Below the pieces are notes generated by a model, which was given only the letters and a program-made list of their open reading frames with translations, made no database searches and was not told the origin of the DNA. This document shows positions 7,055 through 52,207 of a stretch of DNA of 64,000 nt, piece after piece (positions within the stretch are counted from its first letter, which is position 1; every line of letters begins with the position of its first letter). The translations under genes and the position numbers were made by a program. The stretch is taken from contig CATJVQ010000042.1 in assembly GCA_949743955.1 (NCBI GenBank), forward strand, positions 1 to 64,000, in the 5' to 3' direction. Source of the stretch: an uncultured Oscillospiraceae bacterium (GTDB lineage: Bacteria; Bacillota; Clostridia; Oscillospirales; Ruminococcaceae).

Positions 7055-8953
7055 TCAGATCTCCTGAATAATGGGGAGAATCATCGGGCTGCGCTTGGTC
7101 TTATTGTAAAGGAACCGGCTCAAATCGTCCCGAATCATCTGTTTGATGTTGCCCCATTCCCGTACACCGTCATGAGAACAGGTCTCCATCGTGCGCCGGA
7201 CAACGTCGTTCGCCTCGTTCATCAGATTTTCCGCCTCGCGTACGTATACAAACCCGCGCGAGACAATATCCGGCCCGGCCAGGACACGGCCCGTAGCGGA
7301 ATCCATTGTTACCACCACGACTATAAGACCATCCTCCGAGAGGTGCCGCCTGTCGCGCAGGACAATGCTCCCCACGTCTCCGACACCGAGCCCATCCACC
7401 ATCACGGCCCCCGCCGGCACGGACCCGATGACCTTCAAATCCACCCCGTCCGTCTCGACGACTTTGCCGATATCCGAAATCAGCACGTTTTTACGGTCCA
7501 TCCCCATCTCCACAGCTAAATCCGCGTGCTTGGAAAGGTGCTTATATTCACCGTGCACCGGCATGAAAAACCGCGGGCGGGTCAGCGAATGAATGAGACG
7601 AAGTTCGTCCTGGCAGGCGTGCCCCGAGACGTGCACCTCATACATCTTCTCATAAATCACATGAGCTCCCAGCTTCATCAGTTCGTTCACCACGCGCCCG
7701 ACCAGCTTCTCATTGCCCGGAATGGGGTTGGCGGAGATGATAATAAAATCGTTGGGCGTTACGCGGACCTTGCGGTGATCGCTCATGGCCATACGCGTAA
7801 GAGCGGACATAGGCTCCCCCTGCGACCCCGTGGTGACGATGACGATCTCCTCGTCGCTGTAACTGTTCAGGTTGTCGATATCCACGAGGATACCCTGCGG
7901 AATCGTCAGATACCCGAGCTCTATCGCTTTGGTGACGACATTGATCATGCTCCGCCCGGACACGGCGACCTTTTTGCCGTACTTCTGCGCGGCGTCGACA
8001 ATCTGCTGCACACGGTGCACGTTTGAGGAGAACGTCGCAATGATGATGCGCCGCCCCTGCGCCTGCTGGAACAATACGTCGAACGACGCGCCGACATGGC
8101 GTTCACTCTTCGTGGTGCCCGGACGCTCCGCATTCGTCGAATCGGCCATCAGGAGAAGAACTCCCTTGTTCCCAAGCTCCCCCAAACGCGGCAGATCAAT
8201 GACGTCGCTCTCAATGGGTGTAAAATCGACCTTAAAGTCCCCTGTATGGATGATGACGCCCGCCGGTGTGTGGACAGCCAGACCACAGGCGTCCGGAATA
8301 GAGTGGTTGACATGGATAAACTCCACCGACATGCAGCCCATTTTGACTGTCTGCCGGGGCTTTACCACATTGAGCGACACCTTTCCGAGCAGGCCATGCT
8401 CCTTGAGCTTTCCCTCCACAAGCCCCAGTGTCAGGCGTGTACCGTAAATCGGGACCTTGAACTGGCTGAGGAAATACGGCAGCGCACCGATGTGATCCTC
8501 GTGCCCGTGGGTGAGGACTACTCCTCTCAACCGATCCAGATTCCGCTCGATATAGCTGAAATCCGGGATGACAATATCCACGCCGAGCATGTCGTCATCC
8601 GGGAAAGCGAGCCCGCAGTCGATGATGAACATATCGTTGGAGCACTCAATAACCGTCATGTTTTTCCCGATTTCACCGAGCCCGCCAAGAGAGATGATGC
8701 GCACCGGCGTCCGGCGCTGCGGCGCCCGGGAACGGGAAGATTTCTGCACAGTGCGGCGCTGCAGTGTCGATTCCTGCGCAAGCTGCAGATCGGATTTCTT
8801 CTGCTGCGGCCGCGACCGCTTTGGTTGTTCTGATTTGGAAGACGCCGCCTGATTCTGGCGTGTACGCGGTGTCCGACTCCCCTGATCCTCCATTTTTTTC
8901 GCCCGTACAGGCTGCCTGCGCGGCCGGGATGGCTGCTTTTCGTTTTCTGCCAC
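7055..8953 (-). CDS. rnj: Ribonuclease J
   Basis: Metallo-beta-lactamase/beta-CASP ribonuclease with 5'-3' exo- and endonuclease activity, central to RNA decay in Firmicutes. The catalytic zinc motif HGHEDH is at residues 149-154, later DSTNAERPG and the beta-CASP and C-terminal segments (PVHGEYKHL, SGHACQDEL). The start is GTG at 8953, seven bases after GGAGG; an upstream in-frame ATG lacks a ribosome site. The protein is 632 residues against about 555 for Bacillus RNase J1. The extra length is an 80-residue N-terminal tail rich in Arg, Lys, Gln and Ser that looks disordered. Whether it is J1 or J2 cannot be told. Confidence 0.95.
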   Translation of the reverse strand: MAENEKQPSRPRRQPVRAKKMEDQGSRTPRTRQNQAASSKSEQPKRSRPQQKKSDLQLAQESTLQRRTVQKSSRSRAPQRRTPVRIISLGGLGEIGKNMTVIECSNDMFIIDCGLAFPDDDMLGVDIVIPDFSYIERNLDRLRGVVLTHGHEDHIGALPYFLSQFKVPIYGTRLTLGLVEGKLKEHGLLGKVSLNVVKPRQTVKMGCMSVEFIHVNHSIPDACGLAVHTPAGVIIHTGDFKVDFTPIESDVIDLPRLGELGNKGVLLLMADSTNAERPGTTKSERHVGASFDVLFQQAQGRRIIIATFSSNVHRVQQIVDAAQKYGKKVAVSGRSMINVVTKAIELGYLTIPQGILVDIDNLNSYSDEEIVIVTTGSQGEPMSALTRMAMSDHRKVRVTPNDFIIISANPIPGNEKLVGRVVNELMKLGAHVIYEKMYEVHVSGHACQDELRLIHSLTRPRFFMPVHGEYKHLSKHADLAVEMGMDRKNVLISDIGKVVETDGVDLKVIGSVPAGAVMVDGLGVGDVGSIVLRDRRHLSEDGLIVVVVTMDSATGRVLAGPDIVSRGFVYVREAENLMNEANDVVRRTMETCSHDGVREWGNIKQMIRDDLSRFLYNKTKRSPMILPIIQEI

Positions 8954-44721: not shown

Positions 44722-45636
44722 TTACTCTTCCGGCAACCTCTCAACAGCGCGCAGCTTCGCGCTGTGGGATCGGGGATTCACCTGAAGTTCCTCTTCCCCT
44801 GGCAGGATGGGTTTTCTGGATACGGCCCGCGCACGCGGGGCATGCCCGCAGATACACACCGGACACTCCGGCGGACAGACACATCCTCTGCAAAGGCTGG
44901 CAAACGCCTGCTTGACGATGCGATCCTCCAGCGAATGAAATGTGATAACCGCAAAACGCCCCCCCGGACGCAGCCTCTCAAACGCAACAGACAGGCACTC
45001 GCTGAGTGCCTCCAGCTCCCCGTTGACCGCAATGCGCAGCGCCTGAAACACACGCTTGGCCGGATGGCCGCCCGTCCGTCTGGCTGGAGCGGGAATGCTC
45101 TCACGGATGATTTCAGAAAGCTGCCCCGTTGTCTCGAGGGGGGCCCTTTCCCGGCGAAGGACAATACTGCGTGCTATAGGCCGCGAAAACCGTTCCTCAC
45201 CGTACTCCCAAAATATCCGGGAAAGCGCTGCCTCGTCCCAAGTGTTCACAATATCCCGGGCACTGAGCCCTTCACCGCTCATGCGCATATCCAGCGGGCC
45301 GTCCATATGATAGGAAAACCCTCTCTCCGCCATGTCGAGCTGATGGGAGGACACCCCCAGATCCAGCAGGATACCGTCAACCGCCGCGATGCCCAGTGTA
45401 TCGAGCAGCCGCGGAATATGCCGGAAATCCTCCCGGAAAACCTCTGCCGACAGGCCGCCAAGGCGCTTTGTGAGCACCGCCACCGCGTCCGGATCCTTGT
45501 CGAGCGCCAGAAGGCGCCCCCCCTCGGTGAGCTGCCGGGCGATGCGGGCGCTGTGTCCGCCGCCACCGGCTGTCCCATCGATATAAATGCCGTCCGGGCG
45601 GACAGCGAGCGCCCCTACCGCTTCATGCAGCAGCAC
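44722..45636 (-). CDS. rsmH: 16S rRNA m4C1402 methyltransferase RsmH
   Basis: Methylates N4 of C1402 in 16S rRNA using AdoMet. The 304 residues from the GTG at 45636 include GIYIDGTAGGGGHSARI, ILLDLGVSSHQLD, HPAKRVFQALRIAVNGELE and the C-terminal HSLEDRIVKQ. The conserved start of the family (FxHxSVLLxE) begins upstream of this GTG as FSHVSVLLHE, in frame, but no start codon lies in that frame before it. A start with a ribosome site exists in the next frame, which stops at 45648 or so. A one-base loss in the TTTT run at 45648-45651 would explain this. Confidence 0.93.
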   Translation of the reverse strand: MLLHEAVGALAVRPDGIYIDGTAGGGGHSARIARQLTEGGRLLALDKDPDAVAVLTKRLGGLSAEVFREDFRHIPRLLDTLGIAAVDGILLDLGVSSHQLDMAERGFSYHMDGPLDMRMSGEGLSARDIVNTWDEAALSRIFWEYGEERFSRPIARSIVLRRERAPLETTGQLSEIIRESIPAPARRTGGHPAKRVFQALRIAVNGELEALSECLSVAFERLRPGGRFAVITFHSLEDRIVKQAFASLCRGCVCPPECPVCICGHAPRARAVSRKPILPGEEELQVNPRSHSAKLRAVERLPEE

Positions 45637-45713
45637 GCTTACATGCGAAAATCTATCCCCGCTTTCTCCCGTATCCGCCGCACTCCTTCCCTTTTCAGGT
45701 ACATCGTGTACAT

Positions 45714-46133
45714 TCAGAAGCCGAGCTCGTCCATCGCATCGGCGATCATGTCAGCGGTCAGTTCGCCGGATGCAGCGTCGTAAGCGGCCTTATCCCAAAT
45801 CTCCGCCCGGTTGGATGCGCCGATGATGGCAACTTCCTTCTGCAGCCCGGCATACTCCCGCAGATTCTGCGGGATCAGAATACGGCCCTGCCTGTCCGGC
45901 TCCACCTCAACGGCGCCTGCGAAAAGGAACCTCTGAAGCGCCCGCGCTTTAGAGAGCGGCATGGCGTTTATTTTTTCCTCAAGCCTGCCCCACTCCTCTG
46001 CCGAATAGACAAACAAGCAGTTATCCAGCCCGCGTGTCACGATAAAACTTTCTCCAAAATGGCGCAGAAGCTTGACGGGAAAATTGACACGCCCTTTTAC
46101 ATCGATGGTGTGCGTGTATTCACCAATTAACAC
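45714..46133 (-). CDS. mraZ: Transcriptional regulator MraZ
   Basis: DNA-binding protein of the SpoVT/AbrB-like fold that controls its own division cluster. The 139 residues contain the two half-repeats with IDVKGRVNFPVKLL and VEPDRQGRILIPQNLREYAG. The start is GTG at 46133 with GGGAGG ten bases upstream; 20 further in-frame codons lie in the operator region. First gene of the cluster, directly behind its own candidate binding repeats. Confidence 0.95.
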   Translation of the reverse strand: MLIGEYTHTIDVKGRVNFPVKLLRHFGESFIVTRGLDNCLFVYSAEEWGRLEEKINAMPLSKARALQRFLFAGAVEVEPDRQGRILIPQNLREYAGLQKEVAIIGASNRAEIWDKAAYDAASGELTADMIADAMDELGF

Positions 46134-46177
46134 GTTCCCACCGCCTCCCGTCTCAAGAAAAAGGCATGGGCTATATA

Positions 46178-46202
46178 ACCCACTTTCCCCCACTTTGCAC
46201 CA
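46178..46202 (-). promoter_or_regulatory. MraZ box (three TGGNG/TGGGN repeats)
   Basis: On the minus strand TGGTG, TGGGG and TGGGT recur exactly every ten bases, joined by CAAAG and GAAAG spacers. MraZ is known to bind such TGGGN repeats upstream of its own gene. They start just after the -10 at 46213-46218, so binding would block transcription. Confidence 0.8.
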
Positions 46203-46427: not shown

Positions 46428-46456
46428 TTGCCGTGTGTACCGCAATGTGGTATTAT
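46428..46456 (+). promoter_or_regulatory. Promoter of the CHASE2-cyclase operon
   Basis: TTGCCG, a 17-base spacer and TATTAT, giving a leader of about 70 bases before the ATG at 46534. Confidence 0.6.
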
Positions 46457-46533
46457 ATGAAATGGTAGAAACTGCATAGATAAAGAGAATCGGAAAGTCT
46501 GTGGGCAAAGGGCAGGAAGAAAGAGGGGACAGC

Positions 46534-48357
46534 ATGGATAAAAAAAGAAATCTCCAGCTCCCGCCGGCCGTCTGGGCGTTTGCTGCCGCGATTGTAATGA
46601 CCCTTTTGGCGGGCATAGGTGTGCTGAGAAGGGCAGATTTCTCTGTATCGGATGCCTTATACCAGAGCCGCGAGGCGTCCGACGGGGATATCGCTATCGT
46701 TGAGATTGATCAGCGTGCGCTCGAGGACATCGGGCCCTACAAGGAGTGGGGGCGGGATATCTTCGCGCAGACAATCAATACACTCAATATGTCCGAGGAC
46801 TGCCGCCCGGCGGTGATCTGCCTGGATGTCCTCTTCACCGGCGAGACCAATCCAGAGGCGGACGCCTCTCTTCTCGAGGCGGCGGGGCGCTACGGAAACG
46901 TCGCCTTTGCCTGCGCGGCGGAGTTCGGAACCGCCCTCGTTGAGGGACCCGACGGAACGCAGCGCCTGGATCCCTTCTCCATATTGGATTTCAGCCTGCC
47001 CTATGAGGCGCTGCGGGAGGCATCGATGCAGGGACACATTAACACCATGCAGGATGTGGATGGTGTCCTTCGCCACCATATGCTCACACTCACCCTCCCT
47101 GACGGGACCACATACCCATCTTTGGCGCTGCTGGCGGCGGAGAAATATCAGGAATACCACGGTCTCCCGCCAGTGACGCTTCCTCCCACCGACAGCCGGA
47201 ATTTCTGGTATGTCCCCTTCTGCGGCCTTCCTGGGGATTTTGATGAGTCCATCTCAGTTTCCGACGTGATCTCCGGGGTTGTTCCGCCGGAATATTTCGC
47301 GGGGAAAATCGTTTTCATCGGCCCCTATGCAACCGGCCTTCAGGATAGTTTCATCACTGCCGCCGACCATGCCCAGCTCATGTACGGCGTGGAATATCAG
47401 GCCAACGCCGTACAGGCGCTGCTGTGGGGGGATTATGCCAAAGAGGCACCGGATTCCTTCCAGCTCATTCTTCTCTTTGTTCTGCTGCTTCTGGGCTTTG
47501 CAGGGTTCTGGCGGCGGGCCGTGCGCTTTACAACCGTGCTCTGGGCCCTCATCTGCGGCGGCTGGGTCGCTTTCTGTAAAGGAGCGTATCATTTCGGATG
47601 GATATTCCATGTCCTGTGGGTCCCCGTAGGTATTTCCATCCTGTACATAGGCTGTCTGGCATTTAACTATATTCGCGCCGTGATGGAGCGGCGGCACATC
47701 ACCAGCACATTCCAGCGCTATGTCGCACCGGAGATTGTGCGGGAGATTCTCAAGGATGACGAGGCCCTTGAGCTGGGAGGAAGACTGGTGAACATTGCGG
47801 TTCTCTTCGTGGATGTGCGCGGATTCACCACCATGTCCGAGCTGCTCGATCCGGAGCAGGTCGTGGAGATCCTCAACCGTTATCTGACACTCATCTCCGA
47901 CTGCATTCTGCGCAATAAGGGGACGCTGGACAAATTCGTCGGGGATGCCGCCATGGCCTTCTGGGGCGCGCCCCTGCCGCAGGAGGATTACGTCATGCAC
48001 GCGGCGCAGGCGGCAATGGACATGGTGCACGGCTCGGAGGAACTCTCCAAGGAGCTGATGGAGCGCTACGGGCGCACTGTCTCCTTCGGTGTCGGCATCC
48101 ATCTGGGGCCAGCGGTTGTGGGCAATATCGGTTCGCCTCAGCGCATGGATTATACCGCCATCGGCGACACGGTGAACACCTCTGCCCGCCTGGAAGCGAA
48201 TGCCCCCGGTGGAACTGTCTACATCTCCCGAGCGGTCGCGGACGCGCTCGAAGGGCGTATCCGTGTCCATTCTCTCGGTGATACCATCAAATTAAAAGGG
48301 AAAAAGGAGGGGTTCGAAATCCTAACCCTCGATGAGATTCTGCCATTCCATAACTGA
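46534..48357 (+). CDS. CHASE2-domain transmembrane adenylate cyclase (class III)
   Basis: A 607-residue sensor enzyme. One membrane helix (about 13-31) leads to an extracytoplasmic CHASE2 domain (about 35-300, with IVEIDQRALEDIGPY and the end YGVEYQANAVQALLWGD). Three helices follow (about 308-325, 330-348 and 358-380), then a cyclase catalytic domain (about 417-600). All six class III residues are present: metal Asp427 and Asp471, adenine-reading Lys467 and Asp539, transition-state Asn548 and Arg552. It should therefore make cAMP rather than cGMP and should be active. The start at 46534 follows AGAGGGG. First gene of a four-gene operon with three exported proteins. Confidence 0.93.
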   Translation: MDKKRNLQLPPAVWAFAAAIVMTLLAGIGVLRRADFSVSDALYQSREASDGDIAIVEIDQRALEDIGPYKEWGRDIFAQTINTLNMSEDCRPAVICLDVLFTGETNPEADASLLEAAGRYGNVAFACAAEFGTALVEGPDGTQRLDPFSILDFSLPYEALREASMQGHINTMQDVDGVLRHHMLTLTLPDGTTYPSLALLAAEKYQEYHGLPPVTLPPTDSRNFWYVPFCGLPGDFDESISVSDVISGVVPPEYFAGKIVFIGPYATGLQDSFITAADHAQLMYGVEYQANAVQALLWGDYAKEAPDSFQLILLFVLLLLGFAGFWRRAVRFTTVLWALICGGWVAFCKGAYHFGWIFHVLWVPVGISILYIGCLAFNYIRAVMERRHITSTFQRYVAPEIVREILKDDEALELGGRLVNIAVLFVDVRGFTTMSELLDPEQVVEILNRYLTLISDCILRNKGTLDKFVGDAAMAFWGAPLPQEDYVMHAAQAAMDMVHGSEELSKELMERYGRTVSFGVGIHLGPAVVGNIGSPQRMDYTAIGDTVNTSARLEANAPGGTVYISRAVADALEGRIRVHSLGDTIKLKGKKEGFEILTLDEILPFHN

Positions 48358-48371
48358 TTAGGAGGGAGCTT

Positions 48372-49406
48372 ATGAAAAGAAAACTGGCTGCTCGGCGACT
48401 CTGGGCACTGCTGCTGGTTTGCGCGATGTCCCTGTCGTGCGCTCTCACAGCTTCGGCCCAGTCCGCCAAGGCGGCCTCCATGCAGCTGATGAAAACGGAG
48501 GGGACTGTCCATGTCTCCAATAACACAGGCAAGGATCTGCCGCTCCTCGAAAAAATGCGCCTGTATAACGGCTACACCATCACCACCGGCGCGGCCAGCT
48601 ACGCCTGGATCAATCTCGACGATACCAAGCTCATTAAGATGGATGCCCTCAGCCAAATCAGTGTGCACAAAAGCGGGAAGAAGCTGGAGGTCCGTGTGGA
48701 CTCCGGCATGCTGTTCTTCGATATCTCCGAGCCCCTCGCCGACGACGAAACATTGAATATCCGCACTTCCACCACCATCGTGGGCATCCGGGGCACAAGC
48801 GGCTATTTCGGTTACAACTCCCTCAGGACAAAGTCTAATCTGCACATGGTGAACTCTCCAGGCGAGATTCAGCTCGGTGTTACGGACGGGAAGGTGATCT
48901 GCCGCATACCAAACATGAAGTCCTCTCAAGTCGTAAAGAACGGCCAGGGAATCAAATTGGAGGTCAATAGTCACATCGCACCTACGCCGACAAAAATTAC
49001 GGTGGTAGACATCCCGGGTTTTGCCGCGATGCAGATTGCCAGCAATCCCGATCTGGCTCAGCGGGTGGAGAGTGCTACCGGCCTAAAAATTCCAAAAGAG
49101 GCTGCCAAGACAGAGCTTATAAGCGATCAAAAAACCGTCCAGCAGGCGCTGGACATTATCAAATCGCAGATGCCGAAGAATGTCAACATTTCCACCTCGC
49201 CCGTGTGGGGAGAAAGTTCCTTCCCGCCGGCCGCGGAGACCTCCCCGGCATCCTCTAAGAGCGAGAAACCTTCCTCCAGCGAGGCTTCGGATGCGGATGA
49301 ATCTTCCTCATCCTCCCCGCCGGTCAGCTCCGAATTAACCATGCCCGTTTCCGCTTCCGAAATTCAGGAGGCCCTGGATGTACACGACAGGGTCCGTGTT
49401 GATTAG
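48372..49406 (+). CDS. Secreted FecR-domain protein
   Basis: A 344-residue exported protein. A signal peptide (1 to about 29, ending TASAQ) is followed by a FecR-like beta domain (about 36-190): GTVHVSNNTGKDLPLLEKM, YTITTGAASYAWINLDD, ISVHKSGKKLEVRVDSGMLFF and IRTSTTIVGIRGTSGYFG, the usual last strand. After a linker (about 195-265) the C-terminal part is Ser, Pro and Glu rich and probably disordered. FecR domains relay extracytoplasmic signals to a membrane partner; here the neighbour 14 bases upstream is the CHASE2 cyclase, so it may be that partner. Confidence 0.88.
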   Translation: MKRKLAARRLWALLLVCAMSLSCALTASAQSAKAASMQLMKTEGTVHVSNNTGKDLPLLEKMRLYNGYTITTGAASYAWINLDDTKLIKMDALSQISVHKSGKKLEVRVDSGMLFFDISEPLADDETLNIRTSTTIVGIRGTSGYFGYNSLRTKSNLHMVNSPGEIQLGVTDGKVICRIPNMKSSQVVKNGQGIKLEVNSHIAPTPTKITVVDIPGFAAMQIASNPDLAQRVESATGLKIPKEAAKTELISDQKTVQQALDIIKSQMPKNVNISTSPVWGESSFPPAAETSPASSKSEKPSSSEASDADESSSSSPPVSSELTMPVSASEIQEALDVHDRVRVD

Positions 49407-49423
49407 TAAGGGGGAAATCTTTT

Positions 49424-50290
49424 ATGTGGAAACGAATTTTAGCGGTTTACGCTGTTTTCTGTCTGATCTTCTGCGTCACAATGAGCGTCCTGTCTGAAAC
49501 GGCATCTGCGGAACCGACTGACAGTACGGGATCCTCCTCGGATCCGGGTTCTTCTGACAGCTCGGGCTCTGAAGAGGAGTCCTCCCCCACTCCGGAAGAG
49601 CCTCCGATTGATCCTCCCCCCAGCAGTGAGGATTCCTCCTCGGAGCCAAGTTCTTCTGACAGCACAAGTTCTGAATGGGAATCATCTTCGGAGCCTTCGA
49701 GCGATATAGAGGATCCGCCAATCGATCCCCCTTCCTCCAGCGAGGATTCATCCTCGTCGTCCTCTTCCGTTGTTCCCCCCATTACTCCTCCGGCGCTTCC
49801 GGCTCGGGATGAGCTTGTAGATTTTGATCAGAGCTTAAGCATTGCGTCCGGAAAAACGCTCGAGCTCGGGAGCGGTGTCAGCATCAGTGTGGCGGACGGC
49901 ATGTCCATGACGGTAAACGGCACACTGGAGATGTCGCGGCTCCTTGTCAATAACGGATCCCTGCGTGTGAGCGGCAGCGCCGCCCTTGGGGAAGGACTTC
50001 TCAATGACAGCGGAACACTCAGCCTCACTGGAGGAGAAATCCGTTCCGGTTCTTCCTCGGGAACCGTGTGGAACGAAGGCGGCACGCTCCGCCTGACTGG
50101 CGGAACCATCACCAACACGGGCAGCGGCCCGGCGCTGTATCTGTCGAGCGCGCCTTCCGGTTGGGAACACACGTCCGTTATCCGCAGCCGTTCAGAGTAT
50201 CCGGTCCTAGTCGGCGGAGTGCCCTATGTGCCTGACGGATACGAGATAGCCCAGTCCGGCGACGGTTATTATTATCTGTCCAGAATATAA
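49424..50290 (+). CDS. Secreted Ser/Pro-rich protein with a beta-solenoid-like C-terminal half
   Basis: A 288-residue exported protein of unknown function. Signal peptide to about residue 29 (TASAE), then about 95 residues of low complexity rich in Ser, Glu, Asp and Pro, with repeats of PPIDPP. The C-terminal half (from about 135) has regular short strands (LELGSGVSISVADGMSMTVNGTLEMS, GTLSLTGGEI, GTLRLTGGTI) in steps like right-handed beta-helix or filamentous-adhesin folds. No sorting signal is seen. Third gene of the cyclase operon, 17 bases after the FecR gene. Confidence 0.8.
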   Translation: MWKRILAVYAVFCLIFCVTMSVLSETASAEPTDSTGSSSDPGSSDSSGSEEESSPTPEEPPIDPPPSSEDSSSEPSSSDSTSSEWESSSEPSSDIEDPPIDPPSSSEDSSSSSSSVVPPITPPALPARDELVDFDQSLSIASGKTLELGSGVSISVADGMSMTVNGTLEMSRLLVNNGSLRVSGSAALGEGLLNDSGTLSLTGGEIRSGSSSGTVWNEGGTLRLTGGTITNTGSGPALYLSSAPSGWEHTSVIRSRSEYPVLVGGVPYVPDGYEIAQSGDGYYYLSRI

Positions 50291-50311
50291 TAAAGAAAGG
50301 AGAGATTCTCA

Positions 50312-51244
50312 ATGAAAAAATGGATCGCAGCCCTCTGCTTCTCCCTTTCTGCGGCACTGACACTGTCCGCAGGGGCCGCGAACGCAGATATGCAGAGCTT
50401 AATCGACGTGATGTGCGCCCCCTCCGGGATAGCCGCCGTGAACGACGGCGGGTTCCTCGTTACCGACACCTATAATAAGGTGATCCACCTTGTCCGGGAC
50501 GGTAAAAGCACGGTGTACGCCGGCGCGAAAACACAGGCCGATCTCTATGGGGAACCCATCGGCGGCTATAACGATGCAAGCCTTAAGAGGAGCTACTTCT
50601 CAGAGCCGTGGGATATCGTGCCGTTTATGAACGGATGGGCCGTGTCCGATGCATCCAACAATGCCATACGGCTGATTCGTTCCGGGAAGGTACAGACTGT
50701 CAACGCCAAAATCGCGGGACAGCGCAATGCTGTGAAGTTCAACCACCCCACCGGCCTGGCCAGCGATGAAAACGGCAACCTCTATGTGGCGGATACACAT
50801 AACAACCTTATCCGCCAGATTACACCCGAGGGTGTCGCCAGCACGTTTATTTCAGGGCTGTCGGAACCGACAGCCCTGTTCTGGAAAAACGATGCTCTCT
50901 ATGCTGCGGAGACCGGAAAGCACCGGATCGTGAAAATCAAGGACGGAAAGAGCGTCCTCGTGGCCGGAACCGGGACGGAAGGCTTTGCGGATGGGGCAGC
51001 CGGGCAGGCCTCCTTCTCTTCCCCGCAGGGCATCACTGTGGACGGAAACGGCGTCGTCTACGTTTCTGACACCGGCAACAGCGCCGTGCGCAAAATCGCA
51101 AACGGCTATGTGACGACACTAGCAGCGCAGGATCGCGGGGAGATGAGCTTCGGCCTAGCCGCCCCGACCGGCATCCTGCTGCGGGAAAACGTGCTGTATG
51201 TGTGCGACCCGTTCTCCCGGAAAATTTTCTCGTTCACTCTGTAA
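50312..51244 (+). CDS. Secreted NHL-repeat beta-propeller protein
   Basis: A 310-residue exported protein. Signal peptide to about residue 26 (GAANA), then about six NHL units: PSGIAAVNDGGFLVTDTYNKVIHLV, PTGLASDENGNLYVADTHNNLIRQI, PQGITVDGNGVVYVSDTGNSAVRKI and others, spaced about 45-50 residues. NHL propellers bind proteins, sugars or peptides. It contains no catalytic motif. Last gene of the CHASE2-cyclase operon, 21 bases after the previous gene. A hairpin follows its stop, but it has a U-run only on the opposite strand. Confidence 0.88.
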   Translation: MKKWIAALCFSLSAALTLSAGAANADMQSLIDVMCAPSGIAAVNDGGFLVTDTYNKVIHLVRDGKSTVYAGAKTQADLYGEPIGGYNDASLKRSYFSEPWDIVPFMNGWAVSDASNNAIRLIRSGKVQTVNAKIAGQRNAVKFNHPTGLASDENGNLYVADTHNNLIRQITPEGVASTFISGLSEPTALFWKNDALYAAETGKHRIVKIKDGKSVLVAGTGTEGFADGAAGQASFSSPQGITVDGNGVVYVSDTGNSAVRKIANGYVTTLAAQDRGEMSFGLAAPTGILLRENVLYVCDPFSRKIFSFTL

Positions 51245-51251
51245 GTGAAAA

Positions 51252-51281
51252 GGAGTGAGTCTGTTAAAACAGGCCCACTCC
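51252..51281 (-). terminator. Terminator of the TSUP gene, between converging genes
   Basis: GGAGTG...CTGTT pairs with AACAG...CACTCC over about 13 bases with small imperfections. On the minus strand it is followed by CCTTTTCAC; on the plus strand only by CTAAAACG. The TSUP stop codon lies inside it. Confidence 0.7.
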
Positions 51282-52037
51282 TAAAACGACAACGCCGAGC
51301 AGAATCAATACAATGCCTACCACCCGGTTGAGTGTCTTATTATCCGCCCTGTTGGCAATTTTAGCCGCAATCCTTGCCCACAGAAATGTGAACAGCACGC
51401 ACAGCACTAGGCAGGATATATCGGGAAGCCCGCCGATTGAGAAATGGCTGACAGCTCCGGTCAGAGCGGTAAAGGTCATGATAAAGACACTGGTGCCGAC
51501 CGCCATTTTCAGTTCGTATCCGAGCATGCTGGTCAGCACTAGCAGCATCATCATGCCGCCTCCCGCGCCGATAAAGCCGCAGATAAGGCCGATTCCCGCG
51601 CCGCCAAGTATGGACTTGCGGCGCCGCACCTTGGTGCTGACTGCCGCCATGGTTTCTTGTGTCGTCATGACAGGCTTGATTACAAATTTTATCCCCAGAA
51701 GCATGGTCATGAACACCGAGAAATTCCCCATCGCGGAATTCGGGACAAGGCTCGCCAGAAAACTGCCGGCTACTGTAAAAATCAGGACAAATGTCATCAT
51801 CAGGAGGCTGTTTCTGACATCGAGGTTTTTGTTTTTGTGGTAGGTATATGCGCTGATCGCGCTGGCCAGCACGTCGCTCGCGAGCGCGATGCCCACCGCC
51901 TCATAGGCCGGCAGCCCCATAAACGTGATGAGCACCGGTGAGAGTACCGCCGCCGCACTCATCCCTGCAAAGCCTGTCCCTATCCCCGCTCCGGCGCCGC
52001 CCAGAAGACAGACGAGCGTTTCCTTTAAAAACTCCAT
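51264..52037 (-). CDS. TSUP family membrane permease (TauE/SafE type)
   Basis: A 257-residue protein with eight membrane helices. Family loops are GAGAGIGTGFAGMSAAAVLSP near the start and GLICGFIGAGGGMMMLLVL in the middle, the two inverted repeats. Members carry sulfite, sulfonates, thiosulfate or other small organic anions; substrate here unknown. The start at 52037 follows GGGAGGAAAGGAA. The longer frame covers the promoter. Confidence 0.92.
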   Translation of the reverse strand: MEFLKETLVCLLGGAGAGIGTGFAGMSAAAVLSPVLITFMGLPAYEAVGIALASDVLASAISAYTYHKNKNLDVRNSLLMMTFVLIFTVAGSFLASLVPNSAMGNFSVFMTMLLGIKFVIKPVMTTQETMAAVSTKVRRRKSILGGAGIGLICGFIGAGGGMMMLLVLTSMLGYELKMAVGTSVFIMTFTALTGAVSHFSIGGLPDISCLVLCVLFTFLWARIAAKIANRADNKTLNRVVGIVLILLGVVVLGVGLF

Positions 52038-52069
52038 TTCCTTTCCTCCCGTCAATCGAATATTGGAGT

Positions 52070-52099
52070 ATTGTAGTATAATCATATTCCTCTTGTCAA
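52070..52099 (-). promoter_or_regulatory. Promoter for the TSUP gene
   Basis: Minus-strand TTGACA (52099-52094), an 18-base spacer and TACAAT (52075-52070). Confidence 0.75.
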
Positions 52100-52207
52100 T
52101 TTGTTGTTGTGTCATAACCTTGTCCGTTTCGTTAAATTTTAATGAATGTGTATTGGAAAATCCTAATAACGCAGCATTCGTTATCACCGGGAAAGAAGAC
52201 TGAATTT

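Follow-up and report, generated by a model that had tools for sequence, protein, structure and literature searches.

A CHASE2 adenylate cyclase operon with three secreted partners in a recurring, mostly undescribed candidate surface-sensing module of Clostridia

A CHASE2 adenylate cyclase clustered with a FecR protein, a phosphodiesterase and a TPR protein has been described in Campylobacterota, together with horizontal transfer (PMC9239204). In Sinorhizobium meliloti the CHASE2 cyclases CyaD1, CyaD2 and CyaK act through the surface protein NsrA (PMC13001267), and in the Burkholderia BiofilmReg operon a secreted LysM-FecR protein is encoded beside a CHASE2 sensor (PMC5192318). Here we analyze a 64,000-nt stretch from an uncultured, gut-type Oscillospiraceae bacterium (the window, to which coordinates refer unless a locus is named), which lies on contig C42 of the host genome G000 and carries a four-gene operon at 46534-51244 on the + strand. 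The genes encode, in this order, a membrane cyclase with a CHASE2 domain, a FecR-domain protein, a Ser-rich beta-solenoid protein and an NHL beta-propeller protein, the last three predicted to be secreted. We assign the operon to a recurring, mostly undescribed module of Clostridia whose gene content points to surface sensing. To our knowledge, cyclic AMP (cAMP) signalling in Clostridia is little described, and we know of no established ligand or signal of CHASE2 domains.

As in the Campylobacterota cluster, the genes for a CHASE2 cyclase and a FecR protein stand together in the operon. The FecR protein there is an outer-membrane protein, however, and a TPR protein takes part, whereas a Pfam search found no TPR match in the four operon proteins. 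In the Clostridia module the partners are NHL and solenoid proteins, together with GAF-HD-GYP or GAF-GGDEF proteins. No cAMP phosphodiesterase is encoded within the operon; the candidate is a metallo-beta-lactamase (MBL)-fold hydrolase on contig C37, and MBL genes are found at 25 of 54 related loci. In view of the Campylobacterota cluster, the initial annotation went too far in stating that no described system of this exact makeup was known. The S. meliloti cyclases are likewise CHASE2 class III enzymes; an outside signal raises cAMP and a separate surface protein is needed for its perception, but the partner there is an outer-membrane barrel and the output is the CRP-type regulator Clr (PMC13001267, PMC5498481). 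In BiofilmReg the CHASE2 domain drives a histidine kinase and not a cyclase.

The FecR fold is also that of the signalling domain in FecI-FecR-FecA and PupR signalling, but the Clostridia FecR protein is secreted and has no cytoplasmic anti-sigma part, and the operon contains neither the sigma factor nor the TonB receptor of an extracytoplasmic function sigma system of the FecI-FecR-FecA type. On the intracellular side, the GAF-HD-GYP protein Tlr0485 and the GAF-GGDEF protein Lcd1 respond to cAMP (reviewed in PMC8846402). They have the same domain architecture as proteins encoded beside Clostridia cyclases, the cAMP response being measured there and predicted here. The clustering of CHASE2 cyclases with FecR is therefore already known, whereas in open-licence papers we did not find a description of the Gram-positive form, the solenoid and NHL partners, or a fixed association with MBL, GAF-HD-GYP and GAF-GGDEF proteins. 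This literature held nothing relevant on CHASE2 cyclases of Clostridia or Lachnospiraceae, and no fixed CHASE2-cyclase operon of Clostridia with cyclic di-GMP (c-di-GMP) enzymes of the cAMP-activated type.

An inspection of other genomes indicated that the surface genes are tied to CHASE2. Among 391 evenly drawn Clostridia genomes, 19 carry CHASE2 and 22 carry FecR, and both occur in 16 where about 1 is expected (Fisher p = 6.6e-21). In these 16 genomes, 20 of the 21 FecR genes share a contig with CHASE2, at a distance of 0.5-8.2 kb. Of the three genomes that have CHASE2 but no FecR, two are incomplete assemblies (71-80% complete) and one, G301, contains just a CHASE2 fragment. The FecR-only genomes (G334, G355, G393, G406, G481 and G512) showed no CHASE2 in the stretches inspected. 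NHL is present in 80 of the 391 genomes and its genome-level link to CHASE2 is weak (p 0.035); in six of the eight sampled genomes having both, about 5 kb or less separates an NHL gene from CHASE2, and the cyclase tree has NHL loci on each of its two main branches. A survey of 54 CHASE2 loci, which include close relatives and hence do not give independent counts, found FecR at 37, a GAF-HD or GAF-GGDEF protein at 42, MBL at 25 and NHL at 14; for the 33 loci with long flanks the figures are 23, 29, 16 and 11.

The exact order of FecR, solenoid and NHL after the cyclase was found in none of the other loci examined, as would be expected if an ordinary cyclase simply stood beside unrelated secreted genes. 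We regard such a chance neighbourhood as highly improbable, since the co-occurrence of FecR, its adjacency in 16 genomes and gene fusions in relatives speak against it; for FecR it is already contradicted, and for NHL the case is weaker at the genome level but strong by adjacency. The initial annotation had named co-occurrence of the secreted genes with the cyclase in advance as one of the points on which its proposal could fail, and this co-occurrence is what the FecR adjacency, the NHL distances and the fusions reveal. Conservation of the four genes as a unit holds in part only: the secreted genes accompany CHASE2, but their order is not kept and partners are swapped. The sister species G129, for example, has a protein combining BspA leucine-rich repeats (BspA-LRR) and a solenoid instead of FecR.

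The secreted FecR-domain protein (344 aa; 48372-49406, +) matches Pfam FecR (PF04773) at 1.9e-8. It consists of a signal peptide, a FecR beta domain (residues 37-197), a helical hairpin (216-266) and a Ser/Pro-rich tail, and its structure model has a mean predicted local distance difference test (pLDDT) score of 79.8. While the sequence gave no match in the PDB, a fold search of the model with Foldseek returned the cell-surface signalling domain of PupR (6ovk, 1.1e-6) and the anti-sigma protein 4m0n from Parabacteroides (4.2e-7). The FecR assignment is thus structural as well as sequence-based. Over 62 residues the model (48372-49406) further resembles 5ix9, a domain for cell-surface anchoring, which hints that this FecR may help to keep proteins at the surface.

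The next gene (49424-50290, +) encodes a secreted protein of 288 aa with a Ser/Pro-rich linker and a beta-solenoid; Pfam gave no family for it. In the structure model, residues 131-288 are all-beta (pLDDT about 75-91), whereas the stretch 28-125 is coil of low confidence. Fold matches in the PDB are weak (E > 0.3), the best being mostly beta-helices; together with the all-beta C-terminal half they support the beta-solenoid call made from the sequence. The last gene (50312-51244, +) encodes a secreted NHL beta-propeller protein of 310 aa (Pfam NHL, 3.7e-26) and is the sole NHL gene detected in the host genome. The Pfam matches confirm both the FecR and the NHL identities given earlier. All three proteins have N-termini that read by eye as signal peptides, as had been proposed, and the models of the FecR and solenoid proteins show an N-terminal helix.

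In relatives these parts are found joined. FecR and solenoid are fused at six loci (L019, L030, L034, L045, L047 and L056), and solenoid residues 135-185 of the operon protein match the C-terminal residues 420-470 of the L047 FecR protein (L047:1801-3216) at 7e-9. At L039 a single protein of 1339 residues, whose gene starts one base after the cyclase gene, has FecR at its N-terminus and NHL at its C-terminus. The NHL protein of L137 bears S-layer homology domains, which are anchors to the cell wall. Judged by these fusions, the three secreted products look like separate parts of one surface assembly.

The first gene (46534-48357, +) encodes a membrane protein of 607 aa with Pfam matches to CHASE2 (8.3e-43) and Guanylate_cyc (2e-24), in agreement with its first reading as a membrane CHASE2 class III cyclase. 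Translation probably starts at the ATG at 46534, which follows the ribosome site AGAGGGG; the listed GTG at 46501 is less likely. The extracytoplasmic CHASE2 sensor domain (46588-47496, +; residues 19-321; PF05226 8.3e-43, profile E 1.1e-43) is flanked by hydrophobic segments at residues 13-31, 308-326 and 357-380, and so lies between transmembrane segments as in CHASE2 receptors.

For the class III catalytic domain (47791-48309, +), the cyclase was aligned with 51 relatives (52 sequences) and with solved cyclases. The two metal-binding residues Asp427 and Asp471, the transition-state residue Asn548 and the substrate pair Lys467/Thr541 are identical in 52 of 52 sequences, and the second transition-state residue, Arg552, is present in 51. 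In Spirulina CyaC (1wc0) and Pseudomonas aeruginosa CyaB (3r5g), the residue aligned with Thr541 is likewise a Thr. Five of the residues singled out in the initial annotation (Asp427, Lys467, Asp471, Asn548 and Arg552) are in place, but not its Asp539, as the substrate position is Thr541, two residues on. By this residue set the protein is a class IIIb adenylate cyclase, and it most likely makes cAMP from ATP. It is the single class III cyclase that a genome search detected in the host. A decayed copy of such a gene is apparently found in Pseudoflavonifractor sp. 524-17 (L055:8000-8446), where only a fragment of 148 residues remains, with 88% identity to the C-terminal portion of the enzyme.

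Within Clostridia, the operon would then provide the sensing half of a modular system based on cyclic nucleotides. In the proposed mechanism, the FecR protein, the solenoid and the NHL propeller form a cell-surface complex that docks on the CHASE2 ectodomain, and the docked complex determines how much cAMP the class IIIb catalytic domain makes. The cAMP would be read by the GAF domain of a partner HD-GYP protein (GGDEF in relatives), resulting in c-di-GMP changes, and possibly also by a DUF2225 protein with a cyclic nucleotide monophosphate (cNMP)-binding domain, while the MBL-fold hydrolase would remove it. We lean slightly towards this scheme, at the core of which a secreted surface complex controls cAMP synthesis through CHASE2 and cAMP tunes c-di-GMP through GAF domains.

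Recurrent neighbours at CHASE2 loci are an MBL-fold hydrolase and a GAF-HD-GYP protein, whose genes overlap by 4 bases; other lineages have a GAF-GGDEF protein or an MBL-GAF-GGDEF fusion at this place. The operon in the window contains none of these genes. The host genome has the MBL and GAF-HD-GYP genes as an operon of their own on contig C37 (L145), so that the two halves of the system would be split between C42 and C37. The C37 proteins show 50% and 65% identity, respectively, to operon-linked homologs, and their metal motifs are intact (HVHADH in MBL; HDLGK and HHELLNGSGYP in HD-GYP); the second protein has the GAF plus HD-GYP architecture of the Tlr0485 type. The reverse split is found in G537, in which CHASE2 stands with MBL and GAF-HD (L032) and FecR-NHL-FecR lies elsewhere (L183). 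The MBL subfamily (E < 1e-20) occurs in 6 of the 391 genomes, four of them CHASE2-positive, and in a fifth, G525, a 4.5-kb contig carries MBL next to an NHL gene.

The MBL protein resembles the cyclic-nucleotide phosphodiesterase model NF041851 (2.5e-12, far below the cut-off), and a fused MBL-GAF-GGDEF relative resembles the Apyc1 family (8e-4), which was founded on a phage nuclease for cyclic nucleotides (PMC9117128). For the GAF-GGDEF neighbours, the GAF domain matches that of cyanobacterial CyaB2 (1ykd, 1.7e-15) and those of PDE5 and PDE10. The host genome has three GGDEF genes and one PilZ gene, and a c-di-GMP network is therefore present. One such fusion, with MBL-fold hydrolase, GAF and GGDEF in one protein by Pfam, adjoins the cyclase at L139:181-1887 (-), and GGDEF proteins of similar size occupy the same place at L138 and L140-L142. 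The selenomonad loci L050 and L051 have MBL and GAF-GGDEF, but their genomes contain no FecR; the gene immediately upstream of the cyclase encodes instead an exported protein with weak, below-cut-off similarity to LPP20. On C37, the MBL/GAF-HD-GYP pair is immediately followed by the gene for a large secreted protein (L145:4312-9081, -) with a metalloprotease-like HEIGHVMD motif and fibronectin-like repeats.

A genome-wide check for cyclic-nucleotide-binding domains returned one protein, cNMP-DUF2225 on contig C30. It appeared as a second candidate cAMP reader because a homolog is encoded inside the CHASE2 operon of G015 (L019). In G234 a cNMP-binding domain fused to a SpoIIE-type phosphatase is likewise encoded inside a CHASE2 cyclase operon (L134:7290-8489), a possible cAMP output. 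The two cases would fit an output, transcriptional or otherwise, that runs through such cNMP proteins while the GAF-HD-GYP and GAF-GGDEF neighbours sense something else. This is unlikely in our judgement, as a cNMP protein is found at only 2 of the 54 loci against 42 with GAF-HD or GAF-GGDEF; for the same reason we did not retain DUF2225 as a CHASE2-specific receptor. Next to the host's own cNMP-DUF2225 gene (L127:8717-9760, -) is a gene whose product reads as a hemerythrin-like protein (7820-8671, -). The earlier statement that no cAMP receptor was visible holds for the operon, but the output it left open is narrowed by the GAF c-di-GMP enzymes, the MBL hydrolase and the C30 protein.

Several observations weigh against control of cAMP by a secreted complex with readout through GAF domains. 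FecR is not obligatory: of 15 genomes whose CHASE2 locus had no nearby FecR, seven carry it elsewhere, but in eight, including G129, none could be detected. The matches of the MBL protein are below every NCBIfam cut-off, with RNase Z models scoring higher. For the GAF-HD-GYP protein, the similarity of the GAF to known cNMP GAFs is weak (3.8e-5 to 1e-6), and the NKFDE motif is incomplete, without NK. Kinship among the 54 loci further tempers the locus counts. Moreover, the S. meliloti FecR protein SMc02177 is a target of cAMP-Clr and dispensable for signal perception (PMC5498481).

The last point would also suit a reading of the secreted proteins as outputs, in which the cyclase is co-expressed with adhesin-like surface or matrix proteins and the cyclic-nucleotide circuit governs how these are produced or retained. 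The secreted parts are large and repetitive and are exchanged from one species to another (BspA-LRR in G129), the FecR model matches a surface-anchoring domain, and matrix is commonly under the control of c-di-GMP enzymes. We nevertheless consider this rather unlikely, because across Clostridia FecR goes together with the sensor part, CHASE2, and in Burkholderia it is linked to CHASE2 although the output is a histidine kinase (PMC5192318). The pairing therefore follows the sensor domain, not the output. Since FecR accompanies CHASE2 across phyla and output types, FecR-type partners may be the general means by which CHASE2 is read. The earlier proposal that the secreted products form or load a surface sensor controlling cAMP thus gains from the linkage to CHASE2 and from the fusions, whereas we infer their role as sensor and not target.

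More tentatively, and with somewhat more doubt than belief, the module may represent a complete, transferable Gram-positive relay from the surface to cAMP to c-di-GMP, comprising an exported FecR/solenoid/NHL receptor (sometimes fused or wall-anchored), a CHASE2 cyclase, c-di-GMP enzymes that receive cAMP directly and a dedicated MBL eraser. If surface control of cAMP is correct, gut Clostridia would gain a defined pathway for cAMP in which the surface partner, the eraser and a likely reader can be named, and the question of what CHASE2 senses would become testable through what the FecR, solenoid and NHL proteins bind.

Inspection of the sequence verified that the four open reading frames share the + strand and are separated by exactly 14, 17 and 21 bases; every start is preceded by a purine-rich ribosome site. 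A promoter-like site lies at 46428-46456 (+; TTGCCG-17-TATTAT with an extended -10). A single promoter for the four genes, as first annotated, is plausible, but the site is a consensus match only (9/12), and the region holds eight such hits against 3.2 expected. Downstream, the operon converges with a TauE gene (51264-52187, Pfam). A strong hairpin between the two at 51251-51282, without strand assignment (-21.5 kcal/mol; z -3.7 on the + and -4.3 on the - strand), is likely a terminator shared by both.

The host genome has 2.4 Mb and is 98% complete. An Rfam search of the operon region found no RNA element. A phage origin is unsupported, with unnamed PHROGs matches for the cyclase only and none for the FecR or NHL proteins. 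Plasmid records contain only distant CHASE2 cyclases (identity <60%), mostly rhizobial. The upstream neighbour is mraZ (45714-46193, Pfam), divergent from the operon, and the divergent stretch 44722-46193 that includes it reads as the start of a cell-division (dcw) cluster.

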